Shown here in pieces: positions 10,378-13,013 of a DNA stretch of 64,000 nt. The notes beneath the pieces were generated by a model that saw nothing but the letters and a program-made list of their open reading frames with translations, did no database searches and was not told the origin of the DNA. This stretch comes from Oceanimonas smirnovii ATCC BAA-899 (lineage in GTDB: Bacteria > Pseudomonadota > Gammaproteobacteria > Enterobacterales > Aeromonadaceae): assembly GCF_000381965.1 (NCBI RefSeq), contig NZ_KB908459.1, forward strand, positions 62,001 to 126,000, given 5' to 3'. The position numbers were made by a program, and so were the translations under genes. Every line of letters starts with the position of its first letter. The stretch's first letter is position 1.

Positions 10378-11163
10378 CTACATAGTTGCTTTATAACCAA
10401 GGGTCATCATCATACCCATTACGGTCAGAATAAGTATTTTCTTTATTACTCTACCGTCTGTTTTTATCGCATGATTACTTCCGAGATGGTTGCCAAGCAG
10501 GCTGGCTATTATCATAGGTATGCCAATTAAAAATGCCATCTGTCCAGCAATAAAAAATGCAACGAAAGCACCTATGTTTGATGCGAAGTTGAATATTTTT
10601 GAGGTGGCGGAGGCCTTTAGTAAGTTAAGGTGGTTAATTAAAAACAATGCGATTATGAAAAAACTTCCGGTGCCTGGGCCAAAAAATCCATCATAAAAAC
10701 CTACGATTAAGCATGTAATTGAAACTGCAATGGTAGACTTTCTTACGGGGCGTTCTTCATTTGCATCCTTCATGCTTCCTTTAAAAAAAGTGGCCAGTAG
10801 CCCTAAAGGAAGCATGCCCATAATAACGTAAGTTATTACCTCTTCTGGTAACCATAAAATAGCTTTTGCACCAATAAAAGCACCGAATAGAGCAGATACT
10901 ATACCAGCTGGTATGATTGCCCATACAATGGAGCTACTTTTCATGAAGTTTTTGATTGCTGCAATTGTACCTACAGTACTAACCAGTTTTTCTTGTCCAA
11001 GAGCCAGTTGAGGTGGCAGGCCTGTCATTAGGAATGCTGGTATGAGAATCAAACCAGCACCGCCCGCAATAGCATCAATATATCCAGCTGTTAATGACGC
11101 GATAACCAGAATCGTTAAGCCAATATAAAAGTGCTCGGCTATTAAGCTTCCTTCGATAAACAT
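10378..11163 (-). CDS. TauE/SafE (TSUP) family exporter in cargo B
   Basis: A 261-residue membrane protein of the TSUP family, YfcA-like: N-terminal half-repeat YIDAIAGGAGLILIPAFL and second half-repeat GFYDGFFGPGTGSFFIIA. About eight hydrophobic segments can be read. The start ATG at 11163 follows AAGGAAG. It lies 15 bp downstream of the dioxygenase gene on the same strand, so both form an operon. Relatives export sulfite, sulfonates or other organic anions, so the partner enzyme's product or by-product is a plausible cargo. Composition is AT-rich. It is only distantly similar to the TSUP protein at 30-737. Confidence 0.87.
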   Translation of the reverse strand: MFIEGSLIAEHFYIGLTILVIASLTAGYIDAIAGGAGLILIPAFLMTGLPPQLALGQEKLVSTVGTIAAIKNFMKSSSIVWAIIPAGIVSALFGAFIGAKAILWLPEEVITYVIMGMLPLGLLATFFKGSMKDANEERPVRKSTIAVSITCLIVGFYDGFFGPGTGSFFIIALFLINHLNLLKASATSKIFNFASNIGAFVAFFIAGQMAFLIGIPMIIASLLGNHLGSNHAIKTDGRVIKKILILTVMGMMMTLGYKATM

Positions 11164-11178
11164 AATTTATACTTCCTT

Positions 11179-12099
11179 TCAGTACAGAGTCTTTAAGTGG
11201 TGTTTACAATTGCCTTCAAGTAATGCGTCGTTGGCAGGAGGTGAGGAAAGACCGAAAACTCTGAGTAGCCATCTTTCTTTCCCGTGATGGTAAGGCTTAA
11301 AGCCATTTCTTGTGTGTAACATTCTTTGGTTATCAAATGTGAGAGCTTGGCCAGGCTTGAGTGTCACTGATAGCCATTTAGACTTGTCGCGTGTAGACTC
11401 TCTTAACTTTTCTAAAGCTTTGATATTTTTTCTGTCTCTTGAGTAAACATTATGATAGTCAAACCTGGAACATATGTTCCCATTTTTGTCCTTTGATAAA
11501 AGAGGAAGCTCTGGACTCCGTATGCTTTGCTCTTCGAAGGAATCAGGTCTTTTTACTATAAAATTAGGCTCATATAGACAAGCGATATCAGAATCTGAAA
11601 GATCGGATAACACATCATCCAGTCTTAACAGGCTTGTAGTGACCTCTTCATTATTTCTTAGACAAAACAACGTTAGAGTATCAGGACAAGGTGTTATTGA
11701 TACAGTGTGACTTTCTCCTCGCAACCGAAGGTCGGGGTTGTCTACGTGAGGGTAAAAAGTTTTCGTCGAACCATGTGAACTTGTCTGCTCTGTAGCTGTT
11801 CTCTTAGGTACTACATGCCGAATAAGCCGGCCATCATTTTCTCCTTGGTAAACAACAGGATATAATGATAAGGATACACAGTAAGAAACTAGAGATATGG
11901 CTGAGTTAGTAATTTCTTGGTTTAAGACAAAACCCGTATCAGTGGGAGTGGGTAGAAGATTTTCATCAACATTAAGGAAAGTCGAAACAAAGCATTCTTT
12001 TTCGAGCTTTCTCTTATCGTTTTTTTTTTCTCTCAATTCAGATGAATTTACTAATTTACATGCTAAGTCGTAAAGCATGTCATTGTTTTCTATATCCAC
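11179..12099 (-). CDS. Fe(II)/2-oxoglutarate dioxygenase, TauD/clavaminate-synthase-like
   Basis: A 306-residue protein that fits the TauD/TfdA-clavaminate synthase superfamily. A candidate iron triad is H118 and D120 (FYPHVDNPDL) with distal H262 (MLHTRNGF), and R280 in RWLLR is placed to bind the 2-oxoglutarate carboxylate. LTLFCLRN and FDNQRMLHTRNGF resemble the amino-acid beta-hydroxylases AsnO/VioC more than taurine dioxygenase. The start is GTG at 12099, with GAGAATT upstream. It is followed by a TSUP exporter and lies divergent to a YdfG-like dehydrogenase. Predicted role: hydroxylation of a free amino acid or sulfonate. The substrate is unknown. Confidence 0.75.
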   Translation of the reverse strand: MDIENNDMLYDLACKLVNSSELREKKNDKRKLEKECFVSTFLNVDENLLPTPTDTGFVLNQEITNSAISLVSYCVSLSLYPVVYQGENDGRLIRHVVPKRTATEQTSSHGSTKTFYPHVDNPDLRLRGESHTVSITPCPDTLTLFCLRNNEEVTTSLLRLDDVLSDLSDSDIACLYEPNFIVKRPDSFEEQSIRSPELPLLSKDKNGNICSRFDYHNVYSRDRKNIKALEKLRESTRDKSKWLSVTLKPGQALTFDNQRMLHTRNGFKPYHHGKERWLLRVFGLSSPPANDALLEGNCKHHLKTLY

Positions 12100-12220
12100 G
12101 TGCTAATTCTCTTTTTTATTTATGTTGTTGTAGTTGTTGCAGGCAAGATGTTACTGATGCTTTAATTGTTCAGTCAAGGTAAATATCCATTTGAATCATT
12201 TTTACTTCATTTTGTTGATA

Positions 12221-12259
12221 TTTTGTTTTGTTTTGTTTTGTTTTGTTTTTTAGGGGGGG
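12221..12259 (+). repeat. (TTTTG)x5 tract plus G7 run in the leader of the SDR gene
   Basis: Five perfect TTTTG units (12221-12245) run into T5, TA and seven G residues (12253-12259). The G run doubles as the ribosome site of the dehydrogenase gene starting at 12267. Both tracts are prone to slippage and both lie outside the coding frame. Confidence 0.9.
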
Positions 12260-12266
12260 TTGTTAA

Positions 12267-13013
12267 ATGATTGTGATGATTACTGGTGCCACTTCAGGGT
12301 TTGGTGAGGAGATGGCTCGGCGATTTATTGCTGATGGGCATAAGGTCATTGGAACTGGGCGGCGTGAAAATAGGTTGAAGACAATATCTGATGAGTTAGG
12401 GAGCCTGTTCTATCCGTTACTATTTGATGTCACTGATCATGATGGAACTCAAAGAGCTATATTAGAGCTGCCATCTTCTTGGAGTGATATAGATGTTCTT
12501 GTAAATAATGCAGGTTTGGCTCTTGGGTTAGAGCCTGTACATAAGGCTGATTTTTATGATTGGGATAGAATGATTTCAACTAATATTACAGGGTTAGCAT
12601 TTATAACACGAATAATAGTTGAAGAAATGGTGAAGAAAGATAAGGGACATATTGTCAACATTGGCTCTGTGGCAGGAACATACCCTTACCCAGGAGGTAA
12701 CGTCTATGGTGCAACTAAGGCGTTTGTGAAACAGTTTAGCCTTAACTTAAGAGCTGACCTAACCGGCACTAGAGTTAGAGTGACCAATATTGAACCCGGT
12801 CTTTGCGGAGGGACTGAGTTTTCAGGTGTTCGTTTTAAAGGAGATTTGAATAAAGCAGAGACAGTTTATAAAGGTGTCGACTATATTAAGCCAGAAGATA
12901 TTGCAGAGACAGTTTTATGGTGTGTTAATCAACCAACTAGGATTAATATAAATAATGTTGAATTAATGCCAGTTGATCAGAGCTTTGGCGCATTAACATT
13001 GTCTCGCAGATAA
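12267..13013 (+). CDS. Short-chain dehydrogenase, YdfG-like (3-hydroxy acid / serine dehydrogenase type)
   Basis: A 248-residue classical SDR with cofactor motif TGATSGFG (6-13), NNAG (80-83) and catalytic S134, Y147, K151 (YGATK). TGRR after the second strand suggests NADP(H). The sequence follows E. coli YdfG closely throughout (NNAGLALGLEPVHKA, GGNVYGATKAFVKQFSLNLR, IEPGLCGGTEFS). YdfG oxidises the 3-hydroxy group of serine, allo-threonine and 3-hydroxypropionate; a related SDR, IsfD, reduces sulfoacetaldehyde. The gene is AT-rich, transcribed divergently from the dioxygenase-TSUP pair, and its leader carries slippage-prone repeats. A pathway with the dioxygenase is proposed, not proven. 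Confidence 0.88.
   Translation: MIVMITGATSGFGEEMARRFIADGHKVIGTGRRENRLKTISDELGSLFYPLLFDVTDHDGTQRAILELPSSWSDIDVLVNNAGLALGLEPVHKADFYDWDRMISTNITGLAFITRIIVEEMVKKDKGHIVNIGSVAGTYPYPGGNVYGATKAFVKQFSLNLRADLTGTRVRVTNIEPGLCGGTEFSGVRFKGDLNKAETVYKGVDYIKPEDIAETVLWCVNQPTRININNVELMPVDQSFGALTLSRR

Follow-up and report, generated by a model that had tools for sequence, protein, structure and literature searches.

A mobile dioxygenase–TSUP transporter module in Oceanimonas smirnovii and other bacteria, a candidate producer-plus-immunity set for a small amino acid

Introduction

In the IDO operon of Bacillus thuringiensis, a PF10014 dioxygenase is encoded together with a short-chain dehydrogenase (SDR), which converts 4-hydroxyisoleucine to the conditional antibiotic AMKP, and with RhtA, whose export activity has been proposed as self-protection (excerpts of PMC3684760). 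We describe here a locus of similar logic in a stretch of 64,000 nucleotides from Oceanimonas smirnovii ATCC BAA-899 (contig NZ_KB908459.1, positions 62,001 to 126,000; hereafter the window), where a TSUP transporter, an AsnO-like clavaminate-synthase-like (CSL) dioxygenase dependent on Fe(II) and 2-oxoglutarate (2OG) and a YdfG-type SDR are encoded at 10378-13013. The dioxygenase–TSUP pair recurs across lineages, and in Vibrionaceae the dioxygenase has been lost repeatedly while the regulator, the dehydrogenase and the transporter stay under purifying selection. Based on sequence comparisons, we propose at about even odds (a probability of roughly 0.5) that the module is a mobile producer-plus-immunity set for a small diffusible amino acid.

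With the IDO and Hil operons (excerpts of PMC3684760), the locus shares the combination of a dioxygenase for a free amino acid, an SDR (PF00106) and a predicted or known amino-acid exporter. Those operons, proposed to produce and secrete the antimetabolite AMKP, use PF10014 or PF13640 dioxygenases, RhtA and C4 hydroxylation, whereas a CSL dioxygenase, TSUP and predicted C3 hydroxylation are found here, and Pfam detected TauD and CsiD only, not PF10014 (BsmA), in the window dioxygenase. The module also differs in its alternative partners (β-HAD, YdfG or GNAT), its MocR regulator and its many immune-looking non-producers. Because the dioxygenase and exporter families differ, we regard the module as IDO-like in its working, but not as a member of the group. 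The sequence-only reading of the window knew of no described three-gene system of this composition. This still holds for these exact families, as we found no description of a dioxygenase–TSUP module in the open-licence PubMed Central literature, but not for the architecture of amino-acid dioxygenase, SDR and exporter, which the excerpts of PMC3684760 already present.

AsnO (asparagine oxygenase, PDB 2og5-2og7), a C3 hydroxylase of free L-Asn, has in common with the window dioxygenase a Glu for the α-amino group and a P-x-S...D sub-pocket, but the two are only ∼21% identical, and the window enzyme has HxD and Ser where AsnO has HxE and Asn at position P6. Genes of a peptide synthetase pathway, in which AsnO takes part, are not found here. 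VioC, GntD, KDO1 and CmnC belong to the same superfamily and share the substrate clamp of two Arg and a Gln or Glu, but act on cationic side chains via a DXXD pocket, which is absent from the window dioxygenase since it has a proline at P12. Taurine and sulfonate systems (TauD, TauE and IsfD, with TauR regulons) share the TSUP, MocR and YdfG-like SDR families; they differ in that the window dioxygenase is AsnO-like and that known sulfonate genes were not noticed, no dedicated search having been made. The SDR resembles Escherichia coli YdfG (3asu) over its full length, but the window copy sits in a cassette beside the dioxygenase and scores below the NCBIfam equivalog cut-off.

Recurrence of the dioxygenase–TSUP pair

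Co-occurrence elsewhere, which the sequence-only reading had named as the support that its three-gene pathway needed, was found for the dioxygenase and TSUP in several lineages, in some of them together with a dehydrogenase. A tblastn search of plasmids with the dioxygenase returned 80 records, including 40 from Klebsiella, 26 from Streptomyces (distant matches) and 7 from Vibrio. The Klebsiella loci are ordered dioxygenase, TSUP and GNAT acetyltransferase, a stretch that was complete in all 41 plasmid records having it (40 Klebsiella and 1 E. coli); on one Klebsiella plasmid, HlyD, peptidase-ABC transporter and CAAX genes are neighbors. Complete E. coli genomes contained most of the query in 3 of 5,426 cases, and in Serratia symbiotica the same trio lies amid conjugation genes. 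In the Vibrio plasmids p1ST2 and p319, a MocR regulator gene adjoins an operon of dioxygenase, NAD(P) oxidoreductase and TSUP; the oxidoreductase is of the 3-hydroxyisobutyrate dehydrogenase type (β-HAD), and the same arrangement was found in Vibrio hepatarius, Photobacterium halotolerans, Celerinatantimonas and one further genome (G270). Two unrelated dehydrogenase folds, the YdfG-type SDR and β-HAD, thus occupy the same role in the module.

Among 83 Neisseriaceae genomes, 5 carry a dioxygenase–TSUP pair, including that of Neisseria dentiae, and one of the five shows an apparent frameshift. Candidatus Endobugula has the order dioxygenase, β-HAD, TSUP, TrpB and TrpA, the last three overlapping or abutting. 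In total, TSUP adjoins the dioxygenase in 15 of 16 intact loci matched by the dioxygenase search, a count that includes the near-copies L013/L061, L009/L002 and L004/L037; in the exception (G730), a LysE amino-acid exporter takes its place. No relatives were found among viral contigs and phages or in an initial scan of genome contigs with a single protein. More distant dioxygenases, with ∼22-31% identity in local BLAST (L022-L028 and L065-L068), were set aside as other subfamilies, L065-L068 being the four inspected of eight Enterobacteriaceae genomes with such enzymes. No TSUP was found beside L033, L034 and L065-L068, while the remaining set-aside loci had too little flank for judging.

Loss of the dioxygenase in Vibrionaceae

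Using the Vibrio TSUP as a query (E≤1e-60), we searched 329 Vibrionaceae genomes and found 27 loci in 26 of them with 76-97% identity, all of which (24 newly fetched plus L016, L017 and L019) were read by tblastn and open reading frames. The dioxygenase was intact in 7 (L158, L168, L170, L173, L176, L016 and L017), was reduced to a remnant or broken in 12 and had left no trace in 8, while β-HAD was intact in 21, MocR in 23 and TSUP in 26. Among the 20 loci lacking an intact dioxygenase, 14 kept β-HAD, and the reverse was never seen (sign test 1.2e-4, kinship ignored), so that all β-HAD losses fall in loci without an intact dioxygenase. A tree built from 45 TSUP rows has 12 changes of the label intact or lost, at least 9 of them supported by strong branches; the tree alone cannot separate gain from loss, and the direction relies on the remnants in 12 of the 20 lost loci. 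Close pairs also differ in this gene (L172 lost and L173 intact; L156 lost and L016 intact), and the plasmids OCN014 and Rb102 have lost it while p1ST2, with an identical TSUP, has it intact.

Two loci, L165 and L167, share one identical truncated dioxygenase remnant, and dN/dS between them since that shared loss was 0.062 for TSUP, 0.149 for β-HAD and 0.088 for MocR. Where estimable, intact dioxygenases gave 0.06-0.20, which likewise indicates purifying selection. Loss of a producer gene with its partners kept under selection, as looked for in a producer-immunity system, is thus what the Vibrionaceae counts and the L165-L167 ratios display; it is expected if the dioxygenase product is costly or harmful and the other genes cope with it. 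Of the 31 MocR loci scanned, 30 have the palindrome TTGACATATGTCAA (at least 12 of 14 positions) upstream, dioxygenase-less ones among them, a count made without a chance control.

Damage to the dioxygenase was also seen outside Vibrionaceae. In Rosenbergiella the gene is split with TSUP and GNAT intact, one genome (G1243) has an apparent frameshift and another (G164) a shortened product of 288 aa. The Enterobacter plasmid L036 has TSUP without a dioxygenase, and L171 and L174 likewise retain TSUP alone.

Predicted chemistry of the dioxygenase

The sequence-only reading had assigned the dioxygenase to the AsnO/VioC type, and both the residue pattern and the best PDB match, AsnO, bear this out. 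In an HMMER profile search of the PDB, AsnO 2og5 leads (E 4.7e-30), followed by the arginine desaturase NapI and KDO1. Pfam TauD (32.3 bits) and CsiD (28.0 bits; cut-offs 27) match in the C-terminal part only, and the NCBIfam models GntD (82.1 bits, cut-off 345) and VioC (57.8 bits, cut-off 418.6) fall far short. A weak AlphaFold model from a six-row alignment (pLDDT 54.6; 30.8 from the single sequence) had CSL enzymes as its top rows in Foldseek and VIA (Z up to 17.1), with AsnO first in Foldseek (E 1.3e-13).

In the CSL family, the amino group of the substrate is bound by Gln or Glu at P2, its carboxylate by Arg at P19 and 2OG by Arg at P18, Arg at P3 accompanies C4 hydroxylation, and DXXD at P12-P15 accompanies cationic side chains, AsnO having PPSD (excerpts of PMC6224419). 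Mapped to these positions through alignments with CSL enzymes, the window dioxygenase has E87 at P2, aligned with Glu in AsnO and KDO1 and Gln in OrfP, N88 and no arginine at the C4-directing P3, S108 at P6 as in KDO1, R276 at P18 and R280 at P19, with P185-D186-S187...D214 at P12-P15 as an AsnO-like sub-pocket. With the exception of D186, each of these residues is invariant across the 20 intact rows, and so are the putative iron ligands H118, D120 and H262, the lack of a usable iron site being what the sequence-only reading would have taken as a refutation, so that the CSL signature of iron triad and two Arg is present throughout. From this pattern, the enzyme is strongly inferred to be a hydroxylase of a free L-α-amino acid with a non-cationic side chain, with C3 as the most likely position.

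Dehydrogenases in the cassette and on the chromosome

The window SDR matches Pfam adh_short (173 bits) and 3asu over its full length (E 5.5e-94) with the catalytic Y147-GAT-K151 present, and scores 368.1 bits against the NCBIfam YdfG model NF007829 (cut-off 411). It is the sole YdfG-like match at E≤1e-30 in its genome. Genomes with a module lacking a dehydrogenase have a separate chromosomal YdfG at 56-58% identity in 6 of 6 cases. Among seven genomes of the β-HAD type, three have a YdfG match at E≤1e-30, one of them at 56% and two at 45-46%, and the other four have none. The difference of 6/6 versus 1/7 gives a Fisher p of 0.0047, with the 56% line set post hoc and the genomes related; it fits a dehydrogenase that deals with the dioxygenase product but is only suggestive.

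Interpretation of the module

In the producer-plus-immunity reading, the dioxygenase would hydroxylate its amino acid to a product that harms the maker itself or its competitors; TSUP would export this product and may also protect non-makers. A dehydrogenase for 3-hydroxy acids, either a cassette or chromosomal YdfG or the operon β-HAD, would dispose of the intracellular remainder, a role probably taken by the GNAT acetyltransferase on enterobacterial plasmids. MocR, expected to sense an amino compound, would control the set in Vibrionaceae, and lineages retaining everything except the dioxygenase would be immune non-producers.

Several observations weigh against it. Because the Vibrionaceae loci were collected through TSUP, its retention in 26 of 27 of them is partly ascertainment, while the comparison of dioxygenase, β-HAD and MocR is free of it. 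MocR is frameshifted in L154 (dN/dS 0.56 for the pair L154-L155), TSUP is interrupted in L175, and β-HAD is lost in 6 of 27 Vibrionaceae loci. The Klebsiella plasmid dioxygenase shows no decay, all 41 records holding the full stretch. TSUP proteins have mainly been associated with anions such as sulfite rather than with neutral amino acids. The dioxygenase could also be an accessory of a MocR, β-HAD and TSUP operon that has a catabolic or housekeeping function.

A biosynthetic role for the dehydrogenase, as the sequence-only reading had it, comes next: YdfG or β-HAD would turn the 3-hydroxy amino acid into a 3-keto amino acid or a decarboxylated aminoketone, exported by TSUP as a toxin or signal. 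The gene logic is that of the IDO operon, where the SDR makes AMKP and RhtA exports (excerpts of PMC3684760), a dehydrogenase is encoded together with the dioxygenase not only in the window but also in Endobugula and in those intact operons of Vibrionaceae and Celerinatantimonas that were seen, and the chromosomal YdfG is present in 6 of 6 genomes with a dehydrogenase-less module. A purely biosynthetic enzyme, however, should decay alongside the dioxygenase, and the intact β-HAD in 14 of 20 dioxygenase-less loci suggests disposal or immunity over synthesis; enterobacterial plasmid versions moreover have GNAT instead of a dehydrogenase. We therefore consider disposal of the product the more likely role and this route rather unlikely, and the proposed step to a β-keto product is not sustained.

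It is improbable that the hydroxy amino acid is a public good, namely a shared nutrient, signal or osmolyte, with non-producers keeping MocR, the transporter and a catabolic dehydrogenase for what others excrete. TSUP members are described chiefly as exporters, and retention of TSUP alone in three loci fits efflux better than use. The loss pattern itself is equally as expected under this reading as under immunity, and MocR regulators mostly govern the use of amino compounds (excerpts of PMC5320631). Between poison and shared good, we lean to antagonism, given TSUP kept alone and the HlyD, peptidase-ABC and CAAX neighborhood on a Klebsiella plasmid.

Desulfonation, which the sequence-only reading had offered as its alternative, is less probable still. 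Cysteate or another amino-acid sulfonate would be the substrate from which the dioxygenase frees sulfite, TSUP would export the sulfite and the dehydrogenase would reduce the aldehyde (to serine in the case of cysteate). The TSUP family does include sulfite exporters, and the matches of the two dehydrogenases include sulfo-aldehyde reducers, namely the sulfoacetaldehyde reductase 6ixj and the sulfolactaldehyde reductase 6sm7. MocR regulators also govern taurine genes with tauE (excerpts of PMC5320631). Yet the dioxygenase is AsnO-like over its full length and not TauD-like, with the acid D214 kept in the side-chain pocket and with an AsnO-like E87, inspection of the loci brought up no genes for sulfonate uptake or akin to TauABC (no dedicated search was made), and loss of the dioxygenase with retention of its partners is left unexplained. 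Finally, although modules travel with other cargo, chance neighborhood on plasmids and islands is very improbable, since the same pair and order recur in Neisseriaceae, Enterobacterales, Vibrionaceae and Endobugula with tightly conserved spacing, parallel trees and purifying selection on every gene where intact.

A more specific version of the producer-plus-immunity reading, which we hold only tentatively, is a mobile and widespread 'amino-acid bacteriocin': from a common amino acid, the dioxygenase would make a 3-hydroxy antimetabolite able to diffuse, TSUP would serve export and immunity, β-HAD, YdfG and GNAT would be interchangeable means of disposal, and most Vibrionaceae carriers would be immune non-producers. 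The trpBA genes of Endobugula would mark the target or antidote, with TrpB, a user of the 3-hydroxy amino acid serine, attacked by another such compound. In Candidatus Endobugula sertula, this trpBA (L014 11485-13542) is an extra pair, the canonical trpF-trpB-trpA lying on another contig.

If the producer-plus-immunity reading is true, a cassette of two to four genes on Klebsiella, Serratia and Vibrio plasmids and on islands makes and withstands a free-amino-acid antimetabolite. The TSUP family, to our knowledge not previously tied to antibiosis, would gain a role in antibiosis and immunity, the dioxygenases would form a new clade of amino-acid hydroxylases useful as biocatalysts, and the loci would offer a natural case of producer and immune non-producer dynamics for a small molecule.

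Insertion between FUSC and glnA

The open reading frames of the window trio are exactly as the sequence-only reading described them, and Pfam and NCBIfam matches confirmed their families (Table 1). TSUP is the best-conserved gene of the module, with 73% identity to neisserial and 63-67% to enterobacterial partners; it had no match at E≤1 among solved structures.

Table 1. Features of the inserted region in the window
Feature	Position	Strand	Remarks
First cassette	7289-9754		AraC regulator 7289-8113 (-), SAM methyltransferase 8371-9147 (+), LysE exporter 9140-9754 (+); Pfam
Decayed copy of glnA 3' end	9849-9989	-	Right border of first cassette; 75% to glnA 3' end of relative L106, E 1e-25
Copy of FUSC/DUF2955 3' end	10016-10279	+	Left border of dioxygenase cassette
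TSUP (TauE/SafE family) transporter	10378-11163	-	261 aa; Pfam PF01925 135.3 bits (cut-off 32.6)
AsnO-like CSL Fe(II)/2OG dioxygenase	11179-12099	-	306 aa; GTG start
(TTTTG)5.8 simple repeat	12221-12249		Between divergent promoters and YdfG start; TRF score 58, 100% matches
YdfG-type SDR (3-hydroxy acid/serine/allo-threonine type)	12267-13013	+	248 aa; divergent from dioxygenase
Terminator-like hairpin (glnA terminator)	13055-13082	-	Bounds dioxygenase cassette on glnA side

The dioxygenase cassette is horizontally acquired, and the module is mobile, being found on plasmids and as an inserted cassette. GC content is 0.39-0.40 for the TSUP, dioxygenase and SDR genes versus 0.565-0.58 for FUSC, glnA and typA, and no dioxygenase match was found at E≤1e-10 in the remaining 74 genomes of the family (1 of 75 carries it). 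Among nine congeneric loci fetched (22 relatives with glnA were found), eight have FUSC/DUF2955 followed by glnA after 88-338 bp, and the ninth (L105) has an insertion carrying two transposase-like open reading frames, assigned by inspection. A hairpin similar to that at the glnA side of the window cassette is present in the FUSC-glnA spacer of relatives.

The inserted low-GC region, at ∼7.05-13.05 kb, is larger than the three-gene stretch. Its order is FUSC, the first cassette, a glnA remnant, a FUSC remnant, the dioxygenase cassette and glnA, and the succession of the two remnants in the middle of the insert shows that two cassettes lie in tandem at one junction. The FUSC copy has a 239-nt core (10041-10279) that is 98% identical to 6807-7045, plus 27 identical nt. 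The first cassette (GC 0.37-0.40), which shares the junction with the dioxygenase cassette, could be another small-molecule maker and exporter; the nearest plasmid match of its methyltransferase is 41%, in Rhizobium tropici. An (ACCAA)5 repeat lies upstream of the methyltransferase gene at 8329-8353, so each cassette has a 5-bp tandem repeat upstream of one gene, as in phase-variable promoters, and the (TTTTG)5.8 repeat may provide phase-variable spacing.

Tryptophan genes and distant relatives

A tryptophan substrate, considered from a trpB located 395 bp upstream of the dioxygenase in the neisserial locus L062, was rejected. Each of the five neisserial genomes searched has an orthologue of this trpB (87-94%), located 7.5 kb away on the same contig in one (G802) and far off in three, so the gene is native. 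In 12 loci, the 323 bases upstream contained no trp-box-like site (the best one matched 12 of 18 positions), and leader-like open reading frames in L063 and L036 were discarded as lying away from the start and overlapping unrelated sequence. Three of the five neisserial genomes (L075-L077) have a second TrpB (51-53%) apart from the native one.

In the intact Vibrio plasmid p1ST2 (L004 1828-6784), MocR is adjoined by genes for an ATP-grasp protein, a hypothetical protein, an iron-containing redox enzyme and an MFS transporter, possibly for a peptide built from the hydroxy amino acid; the redox enzyme and MFS transporter were also seen in the part of p319 fetched, and sister plasmids of p1ST2 with a broken dioxygenase are without these neighbors. 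In addition to its distant CSL dioxygenase, each of the four Enterobacteriaceae loci inspected (L065-L068) has, in a conserved block, genes for a protein of ∼172-219 aa, a protein of 381 aa and a LysR regulator. On the Pantoea plasmid pJZ29-01 (L006 6600-11731), a distant CSL dioxygenase is accompanied by ATP-grasp, MFS, Asp/Glu racemase and tRNA-ligase-like genes, a block that looks like another small-peptide cluster.

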